Source: Anaerolineales bacterium (lineage in GTDB: Bacteria; Chloroflexota; Anaerolineae; 4572-78; J111). Taken from it: a DNA stretch of 64,000 bases. Below are positions 3,598 to 13,444 of the stretch, piece by piece (position 1 is the first letter of the stretch; each line of letters opens with the position of its first letter). A model generated the notes under the pieces. That model had not been told where the DNA came from and did not search any database. It saw only the letters and a program-made list of their open reading frames with translations. Both the position numbers and the translations under genes were made by a program. Location of the stretch: NCBI GenBank assembly GCA_015075405.1, contig JABTUK010000005.1:620001-684000 (forward strand), in the 5' to 3' direction.

Positions 3598-4440
3598 TCA
3601 AGCGATCACCCCTAATTTGACCCCCTTGAGCCGGCCCGGATCGAACCAGGCGACCGGGCGGCCAAACCAATCGGCTGGAGAAATCAAGTCAAACTCTCGT
3701 TGGGCGGTTTCAAAATCGTTTGTGCCCAATAAATAAGCGCAAGGCGATGGGCCAAACCGGGCCAGACGGACCGCCAGCCAGTCATCTTTAACCAATGAGG
3801 CGGCCAGCGTAACCGGCGTTCCGGCGAAATGGGCCAGCCTGGCCTGAAAAACGCTGTCGTCTCGCAGTTGGGGCGCGGACCAACCGTACACCCGGCGGAA
3901 AAGATCAATCGAGTCGGCCAGATGGGCCACCCCCAGGATGACCTGGGCTACCCCGCTCAAGCGGCCGGCCACGCTGGCCGAGGGCTGCACCCGCCACTCG
4001 CGGGGCGTAATATCTTTAATCATAAACGGCAGCGTCGCGCCGGCTCCTTCGTCGCCCAAAAAAGCCAGGTCCCACTCAATCAATAGGCCATCAGGACGGC
4101 GGCGGTGCATATACTCCGGCCCTTTCACCGTAACGCCTAGAGCTTCCAGCCGAGCTGCTTCGGCGGCCACGTCATCGCTTTGAATGGCCCAGGCGCATGG
4201 GCCGCCGTTGCCGGCAATGTGCTCACCCCAAAAGATGGTTTCTTTTAACCCCGGTTCCAGCGAAGAGATCAACTCGATATAGGAGCCATCGGCAAAACCC
4301 AACAAGGCCATGTGGGTGACTCCATTGGAATGAGTCCCCCCGTAATCCGTCGGCAGCCCCACCCCGGCAAAAGCCTGCTCCAACGGGGCCAGGGCCGGCC
4401 CGGCGATGGTGACGTGATCAATAGCGAGGATAGTTGGCAT
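3598..4440 (-). CDS. Glyoxalase-like domain protein
   Basis: 280-residue cytoplasmic protein beginning ILAIDHVTIAGP with later GVTHMALLGFADGSYIELIS, a layout typical of the glyoxalase-like group (PF13468) in the vicinal oxygen chelate superfamily. A second half-domain (GVAQVILGVAHLADSIDLFRR, about 165-185) supports a two-module fold with a metal site formed by His and Glu residues (His8, Glu near 56). The substrate is not predictable. The stop codon directly touches the start of the wall-hydrolase-like gene downstream, indicating a two-gene operon on the minus strand. Confidence 0.75.
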   Translation of the reverse strand: MPTILAIDHVTIAGPALAPLEQAFAGVGLPTDYGGTHSNGVTHMALLGFADGSYIELISSLEPGLKETIFWGEHIAGNGGPCAWAIQSDDVAAEAARLEALGVTVKGPEYMHRRRPDGLLIEWDLAFLGDEGAGATLPFMIKDITPREWRVQPSASVAGRLSGVAQVILGVAHLADSIDLFRRVYGWSAPQLRDDSVFQARLAHFAGTPVTLAASLVKDDWLAVRLARFGPSPCAYLLGTNDFETAQREFDLISPADWFGRPVAWFDPGRLKGVKLGVIA

Positions 4441-4585: not shown

Positions 4586-5815
4586 CTAATAACACGAGCC
4601 GGGGCAGGGTGGCGGCCAAACGGAAGGGGGACCGACCTGGGGATAGGGATAGCGTGAGGGCGGGGCAAAGGGTGGTCGGGGGATAATCAACGTTCCAATT
4701 CCTTCCAAATTGGCATCCTCGGCCAGGCCGTTGACATAGGCTAACAAATCCACCTTCATCTGGCACTGCTCGGCAATCCCGACCAGGGTATCCCCGGCTT
4801 GAACAACATACACATTCGGCCCATCGCCATAAGCCTGGGGAATGAACAAGACCTGCTGGGGATAAATGTATCCTGGCGGGTGCAAATCGTTGGCCAGGCT
4901 GATAAAACCGGGATCGGGCAAGTTGCAGAAGCGGGTATCCACCGCGCACTTGTTGCCCAGGTTGGCCAGGCTTTCTCCCGGCTGCACTCGATAGCAAAAA
5001 CCCTGTGTTGCCCCCGGCGGAATCTGGGCGACCATTGCGGCCGGGGTGTTGGTCGGCGCCGGCAGCGGGGTTGGGGTTAGCGTTGGGATGGGGGTGGCTG
5101 TGACCACAAACAGGGTCGGCGTTGGCGTGGCGCCGGCCGGGATGAAGGTGGGGGTCGAAGTCGGCGTGACGGGCTGCGGGGTGAAAACAGGAGAAGGTTG
5201 ACCGGCTACGGCGTTGACCGTAATCTCAGCCGGCTGAGCGGCGACCGGCTCCAGGGAGTTTTCTTCATCGGCCAGCTCGGCCACAGCAAACGATAGGCTG
5301 GTACTGCCTGGGTTAACGGCGCGAAAGATGATGTTCGCCAGCAGGCCGCTCCCGTTGGTAATCTCGGGCAAAGCGTAGTAGCGAATAATCCCGGCCCCGT
5401 TATCTACCTGGTTGTTGCCGACATAATCGGCGCTAAAAAAGTCGCCCGGTTGAATTTGGACGCCTTCTGTCCCGGAGTCGCTGTCCTGGATTTCAATGAT
5501 ACCGGGGGTAAAACGCAGTTCAAGGTTCACTTCGGTCAGGTTGAGGGCATTATCCAGGCGCAGTTGAAACGTCGCCGTCTCGCCGACATTCAACTGCCGT
5601 GATGATGGCTCCAGCCGAAGCTGTCCGCTAACCTGAGCTACGGCTACCGGCGGGTTGAATTGATCAATATCGGCGGCCTGGCCGGCGGGCCGGCTTATTT
5701 CACAGCCGGTCAGCAGCAATGCTGACAAGGCTATCAGCAAAAACCCGTAAACTACGGTTAATCTGGACACGAAGCTTCCTCGACTTCTAAGAAAATAGGA
5801 ACTGAGGGAACTCAT
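4586..5815 (-). CDS. Cohesin-domain lipoprotein with two LysM modules (paralogue 1)
   Basis: 409 residues. A signal peptide ends in the lipobox LLLTGC near residue 38. A cohesin-type beta domain follows (about 68-205: LRLEPSSRQLNVGETATFQLRL, ELRFTPGIIEIQD), then a Pro/Thr-rich linker and two LysM-like modules (YRVQPGESLANLGNKC and YVVQAGDTLVGIAEQC). LysM binds glycan chains such as peptidoglycan; the cohesin fold suggests an extracellular scaffold or adhesion role. It closely matches the adjacent gene at 5931-7205, and the LysM parts are almost identical at the nucleotide level while the cohesin parts diverge. The 5' region (5816-5930) contains inverted copies of a GGAACTCGTA decamer. Confidence 0.85.
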   Translation of the reverse strand: MSSLSSYFLRSRGSFVSRLTVVYGFLLIALSALLLTGCEISRPAGQAADIDQFNPPVAVAQVSGQLRLEPSSRQLNVGETATFQLRLDNALNLTEVNLELRFTPGIIEIQDSDSGTEGVQIQPGDFFSADYVGNNQVDNGAGIIRYYALPEITNGSGLLANIIFRAVNPGSTSLSFAVAELADEENSLEPVAAQPAEITVNAVAGQPSPVFTPQPVTPTSTPTFIPAGATPTPTLFVVTATPIPTLTPTPLPAPTNTPAAMVAQIPPGATQGFCYRVQPGESLANLGNKCAVDTRFCNLPDPGFISLANDLHPPGYIYPQQVLFIPQAYGDGPNVYVVQAGDTLVGIAEQCQMKVDLLAYVNGLAEDANLEGIGTLIIPRPPFAPPSRYPYPQVGPPSVWPPPCPGSCY

Positions 5816-5930
5816 CGGAACTCGTAGGAACTACTGCTGAGTTCCCCGAGTTCCTACGAGTTCCTACGATTTTCATTACGTGTGCCCGCAAGGGTATTGG
5901 CGACATGCCCCAAGTTCGTGCCCCTCGTTT

Positions 5931-7205
5931 CTAGTAACCGCACGAGCCGGGGCAGGGTGGCGGCCAAACGGAAGGGGGACCGACCTGGGGATAGGGATAG
6001 CGTGAGGGCGGGGCAAAGGGCGGTCGGGGGATAATCAACGTTCCAATTCCTTCCAAATTGGCATCCTCGGCCAGGCCGTTGACATAGGCTAATAAATCCA
6101 CCTTCATCTGGCACTGCTCGGCAATCCCGGCCAGGGTGTCCCCGGCCTGGACGACATAGACATTGGGTCCACTGCCATAGGCGCGTGGGATGAACAGGAC
6201 CTGCTGGGGATAAATGTACCCCGGCGGGTGCAAATCGTTGGCCAGGCTGATAAAACCGGGATCGGGCAGATTGCAGAAACGGGTATCCACCGCGCACTTG
6301 TTGCCCAGGTTAGCCAGGCTTTCTCCCGGCTGCACTCGATAGCAAAAACCCTGCGTTGCCCCCGGCGGAATGTATACCTGCGGTCCCGGCGGCGTGTTGG
6401 TCGGGATCGGCGTCGGCAGGGGGGTAAAGGTGGGCAGGGGTGTGGCGGTCGGGGGGATGGGGGTCAGGGTAGGCGTGTCGGGGGGTAGAATAGGGGTAAA
6501 GGTAGCAGTTGGTTCCCCCGGTATGAGGGTGCTGGTTGGCGTGGGCGTAAATTCCGGCTCGCCCTGGCCGACAATAATCTGGCCGGTCTGGCTGGTTGCC
6601 GGGATAGGTTGGGCCTGGCTGTCGGCCAGGAGAGTGCGGGTAAAATTAAGATTACCGGTTCCGTTGGCAATGGCTCGAAAGGTAACTCGCGCTAACACGC
6701 CGCTGCCACTTACGGCCTGGGTGGCTAACTGCCGGATTGCCTCTTCCAGGCTGCGAATATTGGAGAAATCGCCGCCCTGGGCCTGAGAGCCTAACTGGAC
6801 CACTGCATATTGCAAGGTACCTTCCGTATTGGAAGCCTCGTTGAGCGCCACAAAATCGGGCTGGGGAAAATCGCCCGGTTGGATCTGAACGCCTTCTCGA
6901 TCAAGATCGGCGTCAACCACTTGCAGCACCGCCGGGTTGAACTGAACCTGTATTTCGGCCCCGGTCATATTGGTGACGTTGTCAATGACAATTTCAATTG
7001 TTTGGGTCGCCCCTACGCTGAGCTGCGTTGTGGCCGGGTTAAAGCGGATTATGGTTTCGGTCTGGGCCGCCGCCGCTGCCCCTGCTGCTGCCGGCGGGGC
7101 GAATTGGTCAATATCCCCGGCGGCCTGCTCATCGCGGTCAATATCGCACCCCAGCAGCATCAGCCCCACAACCACCAGGCAAATCCAGGCGATGAACCTG
7201 TTCAT
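5931..7205 (-). CDS. Cohesin-domain lipoprotein with two LysM modules (paralogue 2)
   Basis: Start set at the ATG at 7205 (MNRFIAWICL...) because AAGAGG lies about 8 nt upstream and the lipobox LMLLGC then falls about 20 residues in; an ATG at 7223 is possible and the longer open frame to 7325 is unlikely. The product has about 424 residues: lipobox, cohesin-type domain (FNPATTQLSVGATQTIEIVI), Thr/Pro linker and two LysM modules. It is a tandem duplicate of the downstream gene at 4586-5815. The last ~140 codons are nearly identical in the two genes, pointing to recent duplication or gene conversion, while the cohesin domain has diverged and gained an insert (GSQAQGGDFSNIRSLEEAIRQ). Probable role: extracellular wall-bound scaffold. 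Confidence 0.85.
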   Translation of the reverse strand: MNRFIAWICLVVVGLMLLGCDIDRDEQAAGDIDQFAPPAAAGAAAAAQTETIIRFNPATTQLSVGATQTIEIVIDNVTNMTGAEIQVQFNPAVLQVVDADLDREGVQIQPGDFPQPDFVALNEASNTEGTLQYAVVQLGSQAQGGDFSNIRSLEEAIRQLATQAVSGSGVLARVTFRAIANGTGNLNFTRTLLADSQAQPIPATSQTGQIIVGQGEPEFTPTPTSTLIPGEPTATFTPILPPDTPTLTPIPPTATPLPTFTPLPTPIPTNTPPGPQVYIPPGATQGFCYRVQPGESLANLGNKCAVDTRFCNLPDPGFISLANDLHPPGYIYPQQVLFIPRAYGSGPNVYVVQAGDTLAGIAEQCQMKVDLLAYVNGLAEDANLEGIGTLIIPRPPFAPPSRYPYPQVGPPSVWPPPCPGSCGY

Positions 7206-7228
7206 AGCATACCTCTTAGCCATAAAAA

Positions 7229-7253
7229 ACACTATGTCAACTTGACATAGTGT
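7229..7253. promoter_or_regulatory. Perfect palindrome upstream of paralogue 2, operator candidate
   Basis: ACACTATGTCAA (7229-7240) and TTGACATAGTGT (7242-7253) are exact complements around one base. It sits 23 nt before the 7205 start and contains TTGACA, so it could be an operator overlapping the promoter. There is no T-run that would suggest a terminator in the gene's direction at that position. Confidence 0.5.
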
Positions 7254-7436
7254 AACATAATTGATACAGGACAATTTCCAAACGGCTGTTTTGTCCTGAC
7301 AGCCCGATTTATCATCAAATAACACTATGCCCTGCTACGATGATACATTATGTTTAGTATTTTTGCAAGGGGCTGGCCTAAAGGCTGGCCCTTTTTATTT
7401 TTGGGGCTTGTCAGCCAGCAAAAAGATATGATACAA

Positions 7437-8533
7437 TAGAGTCAATTCACAATAAGAGTGGTTATGATAAAATAGGTGTTTCACTGTTAATGGCAGGGAG
7501 GAACACCTATGAAAATTACCGAAGAAACACATCGGGCAGATCCCAGTAGGCTTCCCTTGTTAATGGGACTACCCGCCGACTGCTTTTGGGAACTGATCGA
7601 AGCGGTCAAAACCGCCTATCCGAGCTATGAACAGCAGCGCCATGAACGGCCCGGTGGCAAACGAGCGGTCGGTGGAGGGCGGAAATGTGATTTACCCTTG
7701 GTCATTCGAGTGGCGCTGGTCCTGACTTATCTGCGCTTGCACGTCATCCAAACGCTGGTGGCTAAATTCTTTGGGGCCAGCCAATCAGATGTGTCCCGCG
7801 AGTTGCGGCGTTTAGGATCGTTACTCAAACAAGTGTTACCCTGCCCGGAGGTGTGGGAGTTGGTCGAAAGCGAACAACCCTTGAGCGCAGAACAACAGTT
7901 GAAACTGAGGGATTTAGCCGATGGTCAGGTCTTGATTGATGCCACTGAGCAACAAGTCTATCGCTCCAAAGACAGCGCCACCCGCAAAGCCGATTACTCG
8001 GGAAAAAAAACAGTTTACCCGCAAAACTCAATTTGTGACCGATGGCGACCATCACATCAAAGCCATTAGCCAGCACGTGCCGGGGGTCAAAAGCGACAAA
8101 AAACTGAGAGATGAGACCAAAATCGTGGGCCGTTTGCCGGATGAGTGTCACGGCAAAGCCGATAAAGGCTACCAGGGCTTGGCCCACCAGGTGGCGCTGG
8201 TCACCCTGCTCAATCCTGAAACGGCTGAGCTAACCCAAATCCCTCGTTTGACCTTGGAGACCCCCTTTAAGAAGCCAAAAGGGGGCGAGTTGACCCAGGA
8301 GCAGGTTGAATTCAACCACTCGTTGAATTCCATTCGGGTTCGCATTGAACATTGTATCGGCTGGGTCAAGAACTGGAAGATTATCGGCTCTCGCTTTGGC
8401 TGTGCCCGGCAAATTTATACGCCCCTGAGGCAAATCGTGGCTGGCTTAGTCAACTGGCAAACTCAACGCTGGCAGCAGGCTAAAGCTCAGATGACCACTT
8501 AATTTACCCGTTTTTTATTGTGCATAGACTCTA
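7437..8533 (+). mobile_element. IS5-family-like insertion sequence
   Basis: About 1.1 kb element with imperfect inverted ends. The left end begins TAGAGTC with CACAATAA a few bases in. The right end read inward begins TAGAGTC with CACAATAA at the same spacing. The whole interior is one transposase split by a frameshift. It ends 25 bp before the small membrane protein of the DGR locus. A duplicated TA is possible but the exact target duplication is not certain. Confidence 0.8.
7509..8502 (+). CDS. IS5-like DDE transposase, expressed through a frameshift
   Basis: Two overlapping frames encode one protein. Frame 1 (7509-8069) has the N-terminal helical domain (LPLVIRVALVLTYLRLHVIQTLVAKFF) and the first catalytic Asp (VLIDATEQQVYR). 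Frame 2 (7936-8502) continues with QFTRKTQFVTDGDHHIKAI, the second Asp (HGKADKGYQG) and the late Glu region (RVRIEHCIGWVKNWKI). The switch occurs at a run of eight A at 8003-8010, where a +1 shift (or loss of one A by slippage) joins both halves. Such A-runs are used for programmed frameshifting in several IS families, so the element may still be active, but a simple inactivating indel cannot be excluded. RBS GGGAGG before 7509. Confidence 0.85.
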
Positions 8534-8557: not shown

Positions 8558-8899
8558 ATGGACACCTTATCCGTTATCGCCCTGATCGTCATCGCCCTGG
8601 TGATCCTGGCGGTGATTATCGCCTTCCGGCAAAAGATCAGCCTGACCTTGAAAGCCTGGGGTATTGACTTGAGTCTGTCGGGCCAGAACCCGGCCCCCCG
8701 CCCGCCCGCTCGACCGGCTGTGCCGCCCCCGGCCGGAGTTGATGTCAAAGGACTTGAATCGCGTAAAGGCGGTATTGTCATTGAAGAAGGCCGTTCTCAG
8801 ACTGGCCCTGGCATCAAGGCCGAAGACCTCAACGCCGATGGCGATATCCTCATTGGCAAAGGTGAAAGCGGCGACCCAAAAGCCCCACCCCCGGCGTAG
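8558..8899 (+). CDS. Small single-pass membrane protein of the DGR locus
   Basis: 113 residues, RBS GGGAGG before the ATG. An N-terminal hydrophobic helix (about 4-24, VIALIVIALVILAVIIAF) is followed by a basic stretch, a Pro-rich linker (about 45-60) and a polar Gly-rich tail (VKGLESRKGGIVIEEG, ILIGKGESGD) that could form short repeated beta turns. I do not recognise a family. It ends 23 nt before the NACHT gene on the same strand and is likely co-transcribed, so it may anchor the NACHT protein to the membrane or serve as its effector or signal partner. That role is inference from position only. Confidence 0.65.
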   Translation: MDTLSVIALIVIALVILAVIIAFRQKISLTLKAWGIDLSLSGQNPAPRPPARPAVPPPAGVDVKGLESRKGGIVIEEGRSQTGPGIKAEDLNADGDILIGKGESGDPKAPPPA

Positions 8900-8922
8900 G
8901 GTCGGGGGGCGGCGGCCAATCT

Positions 8923-11646
8923 ATGCGGGCCGAAAATTTGCGAACTGAATATGGCAATATCATTCTGACCCAACAAACGCTCACCGCGCCGCCCGATCCG
9001 ATTGAGCAGCTCCGCCTCTATCGAGCCTGGGTTATTAGCCAATATCGCAAATTACCGCTCATCAAGCTAGACCCGCAACCCGGCCGGAGCAGCGACGGCA
9101 TTACGCTGGGTGATCTTTACATCGGCCTCAATGTGAAAGATACGCCCCTGGCGGTAACTTTGGAGGGACAGCCCGGCCAGGCCAATGCGGCCCTGGCCTA
9201 CGCCGACCGCTGGTCGCGCCTGGTGGTTAAAGGCGACCCCGGTTCCGGCAAATCCACCTTGCTCAAATTTTTGGCCGTCTACCTGGCTCAGGCCGGCCTG
9301 CAGCCCGATGGCGATTGGCCAGAGCGGTTACGCTGGCCGGTTTATCCTCGGGCCAATCAGCGCGAGTTTTTGGGACGCGACCAAGCTGAAAAGCTGCTGG
9401 GCTACGCCGCCTGGCGCAATCCCGCCCTGACCCCGGTCTTTATCACCCTGCGCGATTTTGCGGCGGCCACGTTTAACCCCAAAGACCCGCTGGCCCTGTG
9501 GCGCTTTTTTGAAAGCTACCTGGCCCAACAAGCCCTGGCCGAAGCCGCGCCGGCCGTGTTTGATAAGCTGCGCCGGGGTGAGGGTATCTTTCTGTTCGAC
9601 GGCGTAGATGAAGTGCCGCTGGGCCAACGCCCCCAGGTATGGCGCGCTCTGGCGGCCCTGCGCGATGGCCCCCTGGCCGACTGCCGCTGGATTGCTACCT
9701 GCCGCGTTCTTTCTTATAACGAAAGTGAGGCCGCTCCGGCCGCCCCCGCCCAGGTGGTCGAACTGGCCCGCTTGAGTAAGGACCAGATTGAAACGTTTGT
9801 TGAACTGTGGTACGCCGCCTTGCAGCGTGAAGGCGAAATTGAACCGGCCCTGCTGCCCGGCCGGGCCGCTCGCCTGCGCCGGGCGGCCACCGGCAAGCTG
9901 CGCCCCCTGGCCGAAAACCCCATGCTGCTGACCATTATGGCCCTGGTTGACCGCAGCCAGGCCACCCTGCCCGAAGAGCGGGTGCGCCTCTACCTGGCCT
10001 GCGTCGAAACGCTCCTGTTCCGCTGGCAGCGCCACAAAGAAAACGTGGAAGATGAACTGCCTTTGGAATTAACCGCTTTGGGCTTGAAGCCGGATACGCT
10101 CAAAGCCCTGCTGGCTGAAATTGCCTGGCAGGCCCACCAAAAAGACCGATCAACCGGCTCTCGCGCCGAAGCCGCCGCCGATATTCCGGCCGGGCTGGCC
10201 CTGGCCCTGGCCGAAAAGCACCTGGGCAGCCACGAGAAAGCGCACCTCTTTTTGAACTATACCGAGCAGCGGGCGCACCTGCTGATTGGCCGGGGCGGGC
10301 AAACGGAGTGGCAATACACCTTCCCTCACCGCACCTTTCAAGAGTACCTGGCCGCCCGCCATTTGCTGAGCCAGGCCGATCTGGGCGAGCAAGCCGGCCG
10401 TCTGGCCGAACGGGGCGATTACTGGCGAACGGTGCTGCTGCTGGCCGCCGAAGAACTGGTTCACAACGGCGGCCCGGCCGGGCCAAACACCCTGCTGCGC
10501 GAGTTGAGAGACATCCTGCCTTCTGCTCAACCGGCGCCGGGCGATGTTCCCGGCTGGCAGCGCGTCTGGCGGGCCGGCGAAATGTTGGCCGCGCTGGGGC
10601 CAGAGCGGGCCAGCGCCAGTGAGCGCGGCCAGGCCCTGCTCAAACGCCTGCAAACTGATTTGGCCGCCCTCCTGACCAACGGCGAATTGACTCCACCGGA
10701 ACGGGCCGAAGCCGGGCAGGCGTTGGCCCTGCTGGGCGATTTCCGCCCCGGCGTCAATCTGAATCCCCCTCTCCCGGGGGGAGAGGGGTTAGGGGAGAGA
10801 GCTTGGCCCGATATCCTCTGGCGCAGTGTGCCCGCCGGTGAATTTATTATGGGCGACGACGAAGGAGATGAGCAGTACGGAGAAAAACCGGCCCATCGAG
10901 TTAATTTGCCCGCCTTTCAAATTAGCCAATTTCCCATTACGAATATACAATTCAGCGCCTTTGTTAAAGATGGTGGTTACCAAAATGAAGCCTACTGGCC
11001 GGAAGCTAAAAAAGAGGGCTACTGGCAGACAGGCCAATTTCGGGGAAGATTTGATAATGAGGGACGTGACCGGCCCTACGATTTTGGCTCCCCTTACAAC
11101 CTGCCCAACCACCCGGTCGTTGGGGTCAGTTGGTACGAAGCGGTGGCTTTTTGCCGGTGGTTGAGTGACAAATTAGGCCGCCTGGTGCGCCTGCCGACCG
11201 AGGCCGAGTGGGAGAAAGCGGCGCGGGGTCCTGTATCGGAAGACCTGTCAGGTTTTGAAAACCTGACAGGTCTGGTTGGACGCAAATACCCCTGGGGCAA
11301 TGAGGAAGAAACTGCCGCCCGCTGCAATATGCGCGATACCGGCATCAATGCCACCAGCGCCGTCGGTATGTTCCCTGATGGAGCCAGCCCTGGTTACGGG
11401 GTGATGGACATGAGCGGCAACGTCTGGGAGTGGTGCAGCACCATCTGGAACGAAGAGGCATATCCGTTTAAGGTTCAGGACGAGTGGACAGAGGCTTATC
11501 TGGATAGAACAAATGTTCACCGTGTCTTGCGCGGCGGCGCTTTCTTCTATGGAGCCTACTCTGTGCGCTGCGCGGCTCGCTACAGGAACTTCCCGGACGA
11601 CGGGAACGACAACTACGGTTTTCGGGTTGTTCTCCCCCCCAAGTAG
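8923..11646 (+). CDS. NACHT ATPase with C-terminal FGE-sulfatase domain: DGR variable target protein
   Basis: 907 residues. An N-terminal region of ~95 residues of unknown fold precedes a NACHT-type STAND ATPase: Walker A GDPGSGKST (104-112), Walker B IFLFDGVDEV (222-231) and a sensor-like WIATCR (256-261). A helical middle follows to about 620. The C-terminal domain from about 630 is a formylglycine-generating-enzyme / sulfatase-modifying-factor fold (GEFIMGDDEGDEQYGEKPAHRV, RLPTEAEWEKAARG, YGVMDMSGNVWEWCS), a C-type-lectin-like fold. Its last 41 codons (866-906) are the DGR variable repeat. Known DGR targets commonly end in this fold, and STAND ATPases sense ligands and oligomerise. I infer a sensor whose ligand-binding face is rewritten by the retroelement. 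A palindromic insertion (11241-11273) adds 11 codons in the FGE domain and a GC-rich palindrome near 10765 another short stretch. It is the first large gene of the DGR operon. Confidence 0.93.
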   Translation: MRAENLRTEYGNIILTQQTLTAPPDPIEQLRLYRAWVISQYRKLPLIKLDPQPGRSSDGITLGDLYIGLNVKDTPLAVTLEGQPGQANAALAYADRWSRLVVKGDPGSGKSTLLKFLAVYLAQAGLQPDGDWPERLRWPVYPRANQREFLGRDQAEKLLGYAAWRNPALTPVFITLRDFAAATFNPKDPLALWRFFESYLAQQALAEAAPAVFDKLRRGEGIFLFDGVDEVPLGQRPQVWRALAALRDGPLADCRWIATCRVLSYNESEAAPAAPAQVVELARLSKDQIETFVELWYAALQREGEIEPALLPGRAARLRRAATGKLRPLAENPMLLTIMALVDRSQATLPEERVRLYLACVETLLFRWQRHKENVEDELPLELTALGLKPDTLKALLAEIAWQAHQKDRSTGSRAEAAADIPAGLALALAEKHLGSHEKAHLFLNYTEQRAHLLIGRGGQTEWQYTFPHRTFQEYLAARHLLSQADLGEQAGRLAERGDYWRTVLLLAAEELVHNGGPAGPNTLLRELRDILPSAQPAPGDVPGWQRVWRAGEMLAALGPERASASERGQALLKRLQTDLAALLTNGELTPPERAEAGQALALLGDFRPGVNLNPPLPGGEGLGERAWPDILWRSVPAGEFIMGDDEGDEQYGEKPAHRVNLPAFQISQFPITNIQFSAFVKDGGYQNEAYWPEAKKEGYWQTGQFRGRFDNEGRDRPYDFGSPYNLPNHPVVGVSWYEAVAFCRWLSDKLGRLVRLPTEAEWEKAARGPVSEDLSGFENLTGLVGRKYPWGNEEETAARCNMRDTGINATSAVGMFPDGASPGYGVMDMSGNVWEWCSTIWNEEAYPFKVQDEWTEAYLDRTNVHRVLRGGAFFYGAYSVRCAARYRNFPDDGNDNYGFRVVLPPK
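11241..11273. repeat. In-frame 33-bp palindrome inside the FGE domain
   Basis: AGACCTGTCAGGTTTT and AAAACCTGACAGGTCT are exact complements around one base. It encodes DLSGFENLTGL between WEKAARG and KYPWGNE, motifs that are normally close together in FGE folds, so it is an insertion that preserves the frame. A relative with the same core lies at 27696-27729. Confidence 0.85.
11517..11642 (+). repeat. DGR variable repeat (VR)
   Basis: Aligns without gaps to the template repeat 13319-13444 (offset 1802). There are 16 mismatches in 126 positions and all lie at template adenines: nine A to T, five A to G, two A to C. None of the other template bases is changed. The changes affect 13 codons (875-877, 879, 880, 887, 890, 892-894, 896, 898, 906) and always at codon positions 1 or 2. 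The invariant 3' part GGTTTTCGGGTTGTTCTC is the likely initiation-of-mutagenic-homing region. Confidence 0.97.
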
Positions 11647-11815
11647 TTGGAGAATCTGGCCTCTGTTTTCTCTGGCCTCTGACCCCCTCCCCCTCTCAGG
11701 GGGAGGGTTGGGGAGGGGGTGGGGTTTTGTCTTTACAAAAAATGGTCAAGAGAAGATGCTTGTATTTAATCCTCTGGAATCCCGCGTCAGCGGGTCGCCG
11801 CAAAATTTTAAAAAA

Positions 11816-12871
11816 ATGACCCTCTACGATCAGATTACCAGTTGGGATAACTTACGTTTAGCCTATAAAAAGGCGGCCAAAGGCAAGCGCGGCAAAGGCC
11901 CGGCGGCCCGGTTTGAATACCGGCTGGAAGATAATCTGGCCGCTTTGCAGCGGGAGCTGCTAAACAAAAGCTATCAACCCGGCCAGTATGCCAGCTTTTA
12001 CATCCACGAACCGAAGCGGCGGCTGATTTCGGCGGCGCCGTTTCGGGATCGAGTAGTTCATCACGCGCTGTGCAACCTCATTGAGCCAATCTTTGAGCGC
12101 AGCTTTATCGAAGACAGCTACGCCAACCGCGTCGGCAAGGGCACGCATCGCGCTTTGGATCGCTGCCAAACTTTTGCCCGGCGTTTTCCTTATGTTTTAA
12201 CCTGTGATTTAAAACAATACTTTCCGAGCATTGACCATCAAATTCTGCGTCGCATCCTGGCCCGCAAAATTAACTGCCTGGATACCCTCTGGCTCATTGA
12301 TGGGATTTTAGCCAGCGGCATCGGGGTATTGGCCGAAGAATATGAAATGGTCTGGTTTCCGGACGATGATTTGCTGGCGGCAACGCGGCCGCGTGGTTTA
12401 CCCATTGGCAATTTGACCTCGCAGTTCTGGGCCAACTGTTATCTCAACGATTTCGATCATTTTGTCAAGCGCATCTTGCGCTGCCGGGGTTATGTCCGCT
12501 TTGTGGATGATTTTTTGCTCTTTGCCGCGGATAAAGCTACTCTCAGGCAGTGGCGGGAGTCAGTAACCGGATACTTGGCCCAATTGCGTTTGACCTTGCA
12601 TTTGAACAAGGCGCAAATTCGCCCGGTGTCTGAGGGTATTCCTTTTTTGGGCTTTGTCGTTTATCCGCAGCGCCGGCGGGTCAAGGGGCGTAAGGTGGTT
12701 CATTTTCGGCGGCGGTTGCGTCAGCGGCTGGCCGACTATCGGGCGCGACGCATCTCGCTGGATCAGGTAGACTCTTCGGTGCAGGGATGGGTTAATCACG
12801 TGCGTTATGGCAATACGGTGGCATTGCGTCGAGTCACATTTGACAGCTTGCCGATTGTTGCGCCGGGGTGA
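11816..12871 (+). CDS. DGR reverse transcriptase
   Basis: Open from 11513, but that frame overlaps the variable repeat with low-complexity sequence, so I start at the ATG at 11816 (MTLYDQITSWDNLRLAYKKA, 351 aa); an ATG at 11756 is also possible. The palm domain shows CDLKQYFPSIDH (first catalytic Asp), the DGR-type IGxxxSQ motif in LPIGNLTSQFWANCYLNDFD, and the catalytic box YVRFVDDFLLF. The enzyme copies the template RNA with errors at adenines and the cDNA replaces the variable repeat. Its length and the IGNLTSQ signature separate it from group II intron enzymes. The avd gene follows after 9 bp, suggesting one transcript. Confidence 0.95.
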   Translation: MTLYDQITSWDNLRLAYKKAAKGKRGKGPAARFEYRLEDNLAALQRELLNKSYQPGQYASFYIHEPKRRLISAAPFRDRVVHHALCNLIEPIFERSFIEDSYANRVGKGTHRALDRCQTFARRFPYVLTCDLKQYFPSIDHQILRRILARKINCLDTLWLIDGILASGIGVLAEEYEMVWFPDDDLLAATRPRGLPIGNLTSQFWANCYLNDFDHFVKRILRCRGYVRFVDDFLLFAADKATLRQWRESVTGYLAQLRLTLHLNKAQIRPVSEGIPFLGFVVYPQRRRVKGRKVVHFRRRLRQRLADYRARRISLDQVDSSVQGWVNHVRYGNTVALRRVTFDSLPIVAPG

Positions 12872-12880
12872 GGTATTTTC

Positions 12881-13267
12881 ATGGCCTCAGAAATGGTCAT
12901 TTTTACCCGCACTTATGATTTTATCAGTTGGCTGATCCCCCGGCTGGAGAGCTTTCCCCGCAGCCAACGTTTTGGCGTCACCAGGCGGCTGCAAGACGCT
13001 GCCCTGGACTTCTATGAGACCATCACGGTGGCCAACAACAGTCGGGGTGAAGAGCGGCGGCAGTTGCTGCGTCGGGCCGATAGTCACCTGGACAAAGTGC
13101 GTTTTTATCTTCGTCTGGCCGTACAGTGGGCCTGGCTCAACGAAGGCCAATACCAACATGCCGCGCAGATGGTGGCTGAAATTGGCCGACTTTTGGGCGG
13201 CTGGCGGAAAAATCCAGATGGTAGCGATAGAGCTGAAGGATCCCCCAGGGCCTTCGGCTCTGCCTAA
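12881..13267 (+). CDS. avd: Avd-like four-helix-bundle accessory variability determinant
   Basis: 128 residues with a helical pattern of basic and aromatic residues: FTRTYDFISWLIPRLESFPR, VTRRLQDAALDFYETITVA, RRQLLRRADSHLDKVRFYLR and ALEW-like WAWLNEGQYQHAAQM. This is the four-helix-bundle layout of Avd, which forms a basic pentamer that binds the reverse transcriptase and template RNA and is required for mutagenic homing. It lies 9 bp after the RT gene and 52 bp before the template repeat. The last ~20 residues (PDGSDRAEGSPRAFGSA) are low complexity and probably not conserved. Confidence 0.9.
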   Translation: MASEMVIFTRTYDFISWLIPRLESFPRSQRFGVTRRLQDAALDFYETITVANNSRGEERRQLLRRADSHLDKVRFYLRLAVQWAWLNEGQYQHAAQMVAEIGRLLGGWRKNPDGSDRAEGSPRAFGSA

Positions 13268-13318: not shown

Positions 13319-13444
13319 TCACCGTGTCTTGCGCGGCGGCGCTTTCAACAATGAAGCCAACAATGTGCGCTGCGCGGCTCGCAACAGGAACAACCCGAAC
13401 AACAGGAACAACAACAACGGTTTTCGGGTTGTTCTCCCCCACAA
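13319..13444 (+). repeat. DGR template repeat (TR)
   Basis: 126 bp copy of the variable repeat, rich in AAC/AAT triplets (13 Asn codons when read in the target frame). It contains 34 adenines, 16 of which differ in the variable repeat. AAY codons can mutate at their two adenines without ever giving a stop codon, the usual DGR template design. It lies downstream of avd and in the same orientation as the target gene. An open frame through it is not a real gene. Confidence 0.97.

Follow-up and report, generated by a model that had tools for sequence, protein, structure and literature searches.

A candidate NACHT-FGE sensor gene with a diversity-generating retroelement and a predicted -1 frameshift from a membrane protein in an Anaerolineales bacterium

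The NACHT-FGE gene and its retroelement

The 64,000-nucleotide stretch of an Anaerolineales bacterium genome analyzed here (GCA_015075405.1, contig JABTUK010000005.1, positions 620,001 to 684,000; hereafter the window) carries on its forward strand the genes for a small membrane protein, for a NACHT ATPase with a C-terminal domain of the formylglycine-generating enzyme (FGE) family, and for the components of a diversity-generating retroelement (DGR). Read from its first ATG, the open reading frame (ORF) of the ATPase extends from 8923 to 11646 and encodes 907 amino acids, which are matched by the Pfam families NACHT (PF05729, E 2.1e-7) and FGE-sulfatase (PF03781, residues 635-903, E 2.3e-54); the Walker A (GDPGSGKST) and Walker B (FLFDGVDE) motifs can be read directly in the translation. 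The C-type-lectin-like FGE domain, the predicted sensor (10810-11643, forward strand), is recovered by Pfam, phmmer and Foldseek alike: phmmer matches it to human FGE and to Treponema denticola variable protein 1 (TvpA, 2y3c), a DGR variable protein with a solved structure, and in Foldseek residues 630-907 of the model (predicted template-modelling score, pTM, 0.75) match FGE structures with E 3e-13.

Multiple features identify the adjacent genes as parts of a DGR. The variable repeat (VR; 11517-11642, codons 866-906) comprises the last 126 nt of the target ORF, and is 87% identical to a template repeat (TR) of 126 nt at 13319-13444 on the same strand. All 16 mismatches between the repeats fall on template adenines, such that 16 of the 34 adenines are replaced, by T in 9 cases, G in 5 and C in 2, compared with none of the 92 C, G and T positions. 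Between the repeats lie the reverse transcriptase (RT; 11816-12871, forward strand, 351 aa), with the motifs LPIGNLTSQ and FVDD in its translation and matches to RVT_1 (E 9e-17) and to the PHROG RT (1e-122), and the accessory protein Avd (12881-13267, forward strand), which matches bAvd (PF22296, E 3e-19) and the NCBIfam model DivGenRetAVD (NF033474, 96 bits against a cut-off of 80). Together, VR, TR, RT and Avd constitute a complete DGR, as read from the one genome sequence of the species. The RT is the sole copy of its kind in the 9-Mb genome, in which we detected no second DGR target. A paralogous NACHT-FGE gene at C2:427476, with a 70% DNA match to the TR inside its FGE domain, was considered as such a target and set aside, being a relative that has no DGR of its own.

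The mismatches alter codons 875-906, at codon position 1 or 2. Across 22 class-level homologues, the codons whose first or second position is an adenine in the TR show a mean entropy of 2.92 bits, compared with 1.04 bits for the other VR codons and 1.49 bits for the remainder of the FGE domain; variability is thus concentrated at the TR-adenine codons far above chance. In the alignment with human FGE, both members of the catalytic cysteine pair (C336/C341) are missing and the loop that holds them is shorter; this shortened loop coincides with the hypervariable codons 875-880. Together with the entropy values, this indicates that the FGE scaffold is retained while its former active-site face varies. 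The AlphaFold model is of low confidence exactly in the VR and gave no mapping of the exposure of the VR residues. These results bear out the first-pass annotation, made from the letters alone, in its claims that the variable codons end an FGE fold attached to a NACHT ATPase with Walker A and B motifs that look intact, and that a DGR diversifies this end of the sensor domain; of the FGE active-site residues whose retention it had named as evidence against its reading, neither catalytic cysteine is present.

Short palindromic elements were noted within the gene. A perfect 16-bp inverted repeat, a type with seven sites in the genome, lies in frame in the FGE domain (11241-11273). In the linker ahead of the FGE domain, likewise in frame, is a C/G-rich repeat (10764-10795) that recurs at 11688; the loci L054 and L006 have similar repeats inside their own NACHT-FGE coding sequences.

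The membrane partner and the junction signal

Directly upstream on the same strand is a 113-aa ORF (8558-8899) with a transmembrane (TM) helix at residues 4-22, a Pro-rich linker and two imperfect beta-type motifs (VDVKGLESRKGGIVIEEG and GIKAEDLNADGDILIGKG); the positive-inside rule predicts an N-out/C-in orientation for this single helix. No Pfam, PADLOC, NCBIfam or PHROG family matches it above cut-off, the best Pfam value being 0.015, below cut-off, for Flp1_like; a scan of contigs with the 113-aa sequence gave a match only in Thalassospira, antisense and attributable to chance. Seven strong homologues of this protein were found in the class, in G006 and six more genomes, the G006 protein (55% identity) being encoded directly upstream of a NACHT-FGE gene. 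Among these eight strong family members, a NACHT-FGE protein is encoded downstream in the window, G006 and G341 and an NB-ARC-TPR protein in G143, G171 and G148; in G005 a short non-STAND ORF follows, and in G038 the contig ends too early for the downstream gene to be read. At least six of the eight are accordingly followed by a STAND ATPase. The loci L284, L285 and L286 combine a TM partner and the junction described below with NB-ARC-TPR proteins; the predicted frameshift module thus extends beyond DGR systems.

The two ORFs of the window are joined by what has the form of a -1 frameshift signal. A slippery heptamer, C_CCA_AAA, lies at 8875-8881 in the 0 frame of the partner ORF and is followed after 6 nt by a GC-rich stem-loop at 8888-8908 (CCCCCGGC / GTAGG / GTCGGGGG; arms 8888-8895 and 8901-8908), the loop of which holds the TAG stop of the partner (8897-8899). 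The -1 frame, open from 8866, would contribute the 921 codons at 8881-11646 of a predicted 1029-aa TM-NACHT-FGE fusion, with the junction PKSPTPGVGSGGGGQS, read ...GDPK|SPTPGVGSGGGGQSMRAENL...; a third beta-type motif (MRAENLRTEYGNIILTQQ) lies in this -1 portion, ahead of the NACHT domain. Since the frame is open back to 8866 and ribosomes translating the 8558 ORF would reach it by slipping -1, the functional unit probably begins upstream of 8923.

The same arrangement recurs throughout the partner family. The heptamer C_CCA_AAA, followed by G, is present in all eight strong members, window included, with the stop 3 or 15 nt later, and in all eight the -1 frame passes through it without a stop and runs into the downstream ORF. 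Under the codon usage of each locus, the joint probability of the codon choice xxC-CCA-AAA over the eight loci is about 10^-14, a product that assumes their independence. A ninth locus, L054, which contains the closest RT relative and whose partner is helical and unrelated, has A_AAA_AAA with the same kind of stem. A GC stem begins 3-7 nt past the heptamer in 9/9 loci (combined shuffle p about 8e-9). As a control, all fetched DNA was surveyed for CCCAAAA at most 24 nt before the stop: of 776 -1 junctions, 7 have it, each at one of these loci, and of 825 +1 junctions, none. A covariance model of the junction scores these loci at 36-48 bits and the next matches at 30.6 and below; the latter, where inspected, are terminator-like hairpins, a CRISPR array and other non-STAND sites, with no STAND junction among them. 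An Rfam search of the locus found nothing. A reading of the palindrome CCCCCG..CGGGGG at the junction as a dispersed repeat was rejected, since this palindrome forms the conserved stem downstream of the heptamer. Moreover, six relatives have no ATG ahead of the third motif.

A second complete locus (L287, in the genome G341 of another family) contains a TM partner, C_CCA_AAA, the stem CCCTCC/GGAGGG, a 915-codon NACHT-FGE portion in the -1 frame, an RT and Avd. Its VR (3826-3951) and its TR (5741-5866, on the other strand) differ at 19 positions, all of them among the 36 template adenines and none among the 90 other positions. The presence of this full set indicates that the combination of frameshift signal, DGR and NACHT-FGE protein is not a one-off.

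A conserved slippery site, hairpin and -1 frame are thus present at these loci, and from them we infer slippage in cells: the most likely form of the target is a 1029-aa TM-NACHT-FGE fusion that arises through programmed -1 frameshifting, beside the short TM protein. The first-pass annotation had pointed to a membrane partner; the protein is there, and the apparent conserved frameshift signal makes it more than a mere neighbor. Such fusions would be missed by annotation, because a stop codon divides the gene.

A transposase-like ORF pair immediately upstream (7509-8502), split at an A-run (GGGAAAAAAAACAG near 8003), resembles insertion sequence elements that use frameshifting, and its first ORF has no NCBIfam match. 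On the minus strand, 4586-5815 and 5931-7325 encode tandem related secreted proteins with LysM domains (one also with cohesin), the C-terminal LysM regions of which are near-identical. In a genome of the same genus (G001), gltB is conserved at 80% identity with no DGR module upstream, which marks the module as accessory; the comparison yielded no clean empty site.

Proposed mechanism and competing explanations

We propose that the locus encodes a STAND sensor system diversified by a DGR, with two products made from one operon by -1 frameshifting and a membrane-directed function in conflict, an interpretation that we favor as a whole while regarding it as well short of secure. Most ribosomes would produce the short TM protein with two beta motifs, the abundant form, and a fraction, aided by the hairpin, would slip by -1 at C_CCA_AAA to yield the minor form, a fusion of TM anchor, three beta motifs, NACHT switch and hypervariable FGE tip, tethered to the membrane and oriented toward the cytoplasm. 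Binding of a ligand to the variable FGE surface could then drive NACHT oligomerization and cluster the TM/beta segments, and the short protein, which shares the same TM helix and motifs, might be recruited as an effector that disturbs the membrane. Rewriting of the binding face by RT, Avd and TR would allow a lineage to change specificity and leave the switch untouched.

Several observations weigh against this proposal. PADLOC yields no STAND defense match and the defense library no meaningful one. The arms of the stem are themselves conserved in sequence, so that there is almost no covariation; one compensated stem, CCCTCC/GGAGGG of L219, was seen by eye. An in-frame ATG (8923) follows the junction in the window, an ATGA overlap in L214 would permit ordinary coupled initiation, and L288, a member of the frameshift family, precedes a short non-STAND ORF. 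Furthermore, the match between the partner and NACHT motifs is weak in the window (p about 0.05, rank 9/908; by hhalign P 0.01, with a probability of 4%).

The alternative that survives best, which we regard as unlikely without dismissing it, accepts the diversified sensor and assigns it a role other than defense, such as recognition of kin or neighbors or sensing of environmental ligands in a filamentous or aggregating bacterium. It draws on the lack of a defense-library match noted above; among catalogued bNACHT/Avs defense proteins too we found none matching, NCBIfam EruA reaching 22.6 bits against a cut-off of 1000. As to the relatives, an RT match is present in 35 genomes among 100 relatives, and most close RT relatives adjoin an FGE target with adenine-specific VR/TR pairs. 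Counted N-terminal to NACHT or FGE, over DGR-linked FGE targets plus other STAND-FGE or FGE proteins of the class, the domains found are TIR (2), caspase (1), DUF4062 (3), metallophosphatase (1) and TM segments (4). What speaks against the alternative is that TIR, caspase and DUF4062 are typical cell-death effectors; DUF4062 is a TIR-like NADase family according to PMC13174449. The occurrence of effector domains in the N-terminal slot supports a role in conflict or cell death and fits a conflict sensor, and the published clade-mates are embedded in conflict systems (PMC10907252). Three relatives (L117, L118 and L114) are DUF4062-NACHT-FGE proteins, two of which, L117 and L118, adjoin a DGR RT and Avd and are possibly TIR-like NADases with a hypervariable sensor.

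Rather less probable, in our estimate, is that the TM/beta protein and the NACHT-FGE protein are two separate translation products, made by coupled initiation, that meet through matching beta motifs in the manner of bacterial amyloid-signaling effector/NLR (NOD-like receptor) pairs. Both the ATG at 8923 and the ATGA overlap in L214 would serve such a scheme, and adjacent partner/NACHT pairs with near-identical motifs do exist, with alignment scores of 102 (L112), 91 (L087) and 79 (L099), each with p<1/300. This alternative leaves unexplained the invariant C_CCA_AAA, the hairpin, the constant -1 frame and the third motif that lacks an ATG in six relatives. Motif sharing also has a place in the frameshift model: in a leave-one-out analysis, 6/9 loci have their best match to a profile of the second partner motif no more than ~20 residues past the slip site (combined p 0.017; the window and others are weaker), and co-assembly of the short protein with the fusion through these motifs is plausible. 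In L112, L087/L115 and L099/L120, the upstream neighbor ends with nearly the N-terminal motif of the NACHT protein (e.g., GSGAIAQGEGAVAAGAGGVAVGGSV / GPGAIAQVGGVAAGAGGVAVGRDI), and these are candidate amyloid-signaling pairs without a slippery site.

That the split between 8558 and 8923 reflects a decayed or mis-sequenced single gene is highly improbable: the junction does lie within C/G homopolymer runs, and in L104 the FGE domain probably contains a homopolymer frameshift at another place, but the identical -1 split and heptamer recur in seven other loci, with one A_AAA_AAA in addition, from different genera and families. That the FGE domain might be catalytically active and generate formylglycine on a sulfatase can be practically discarded, its strong family match notwithstanding, considering that the loop of the human catalytic cysteines is shortened, devoid of cysteines and coincident with hypervariable codons.

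Relation to known systems

Frameshifting of the Gag/Gag-Pol and dnaX type by -1 employs an X_XXY_YYZ heptamer, a short spacer and a stem-loop, and gives two products that share their N-terminus. The junction described here has in common with it the heptamer, the spacer, the stem-loop and a predicted two-product layout. In the literature searched, outside of which most subscription journals lie, we came across no account of STAND or NLR-like systems that use programmed frameshifting. It appears to us an even bet that bacterial NLR-like sensors use -1 frameshifting, in Gag/Gag-Pol fashion, to set the ratio of a small membrane effector to its sensor-tethered form, with a frameshift module common to NB-ARC-TPR and DGR-hypermutated NACHT-FGE sensors. 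The implied wiring would lead from the sensor tip through the NACHT switch to the membrane effector, with the stoichiometry of sensor and effector encoded in the mRNA.

The locus resembles the bacterial amyloid signaling sequence (BASS) effector/NLR pairs (Dyrka et al., 2020, as described in PMC8086366 and PMC12261475) in its adjacent genes and, less clearly, in the short beta motifs that end the effector and begin the NLR; unlike in those descriptions, the partner has a single TM helix and no recognized Bell domain, the motif match in the window is weak, and the sensor is predicted to be made as a fusion. The STAND NTPase-FGS systems with EAD, bDLD or effector domains (Kaur et al., 2020, PMC7159879; Kaur et al., 2021, PMC8195603) similarly combine NACHT with FGS/FGE and have an interchangeable N-terminal slot for effectors or adaptors, whereas this slot is occupied here by a single TM helix and beta motifs encoded in a different frame.

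DGR-diversified STAND-FGE sensors are thus already known (PMC10907252; PMC8195603; PMC7159879). The novelty that the first-pass annotation saw in the architecture with its membrane partner accordingly does not extend to the NACHT-FGE-DGR combination, previously described (PMC10907252; PMC8195603), and resides in the link to the partner through the frameshift signal. The closest parallel is provided by the DGR-diversified NACHT/nSTAND1-CLec(FGE) targets of RT clade 5D (Dore et al., 2024, PNAS, PMC10907252), which likewise have a central STAND NTPase and a C-terminal FGE/CLec domain hypermutated by a DGR, occur in multicellular-type bacteria, including filamentous Chloroflexi, and were proposed, as here, to be antigen sensors. 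The main text of that study mentions neither frameshifting nor amyloid motifs (amyloid appears in one reference title only). DGR-diversified STAND proteins have been proposed as adaptive immune sensors of multicellular bacteria, and their route to an effector is mostly obscure because many of their N-terminal regions have no recognized domains. In contrast to the N-terminal extensions without known domains in the published targets (PMC10907252), the extension at this locus is a TM/beta module supplied by a predicted -1 frameshift. The missing effector link thus seems to be provided here by ribosomal frameshifting onto a membrane-anchored beta-motif protein, which, if true, would unite translational recoding with targeted hypermutation in a single adaptive, immune-like receptor.
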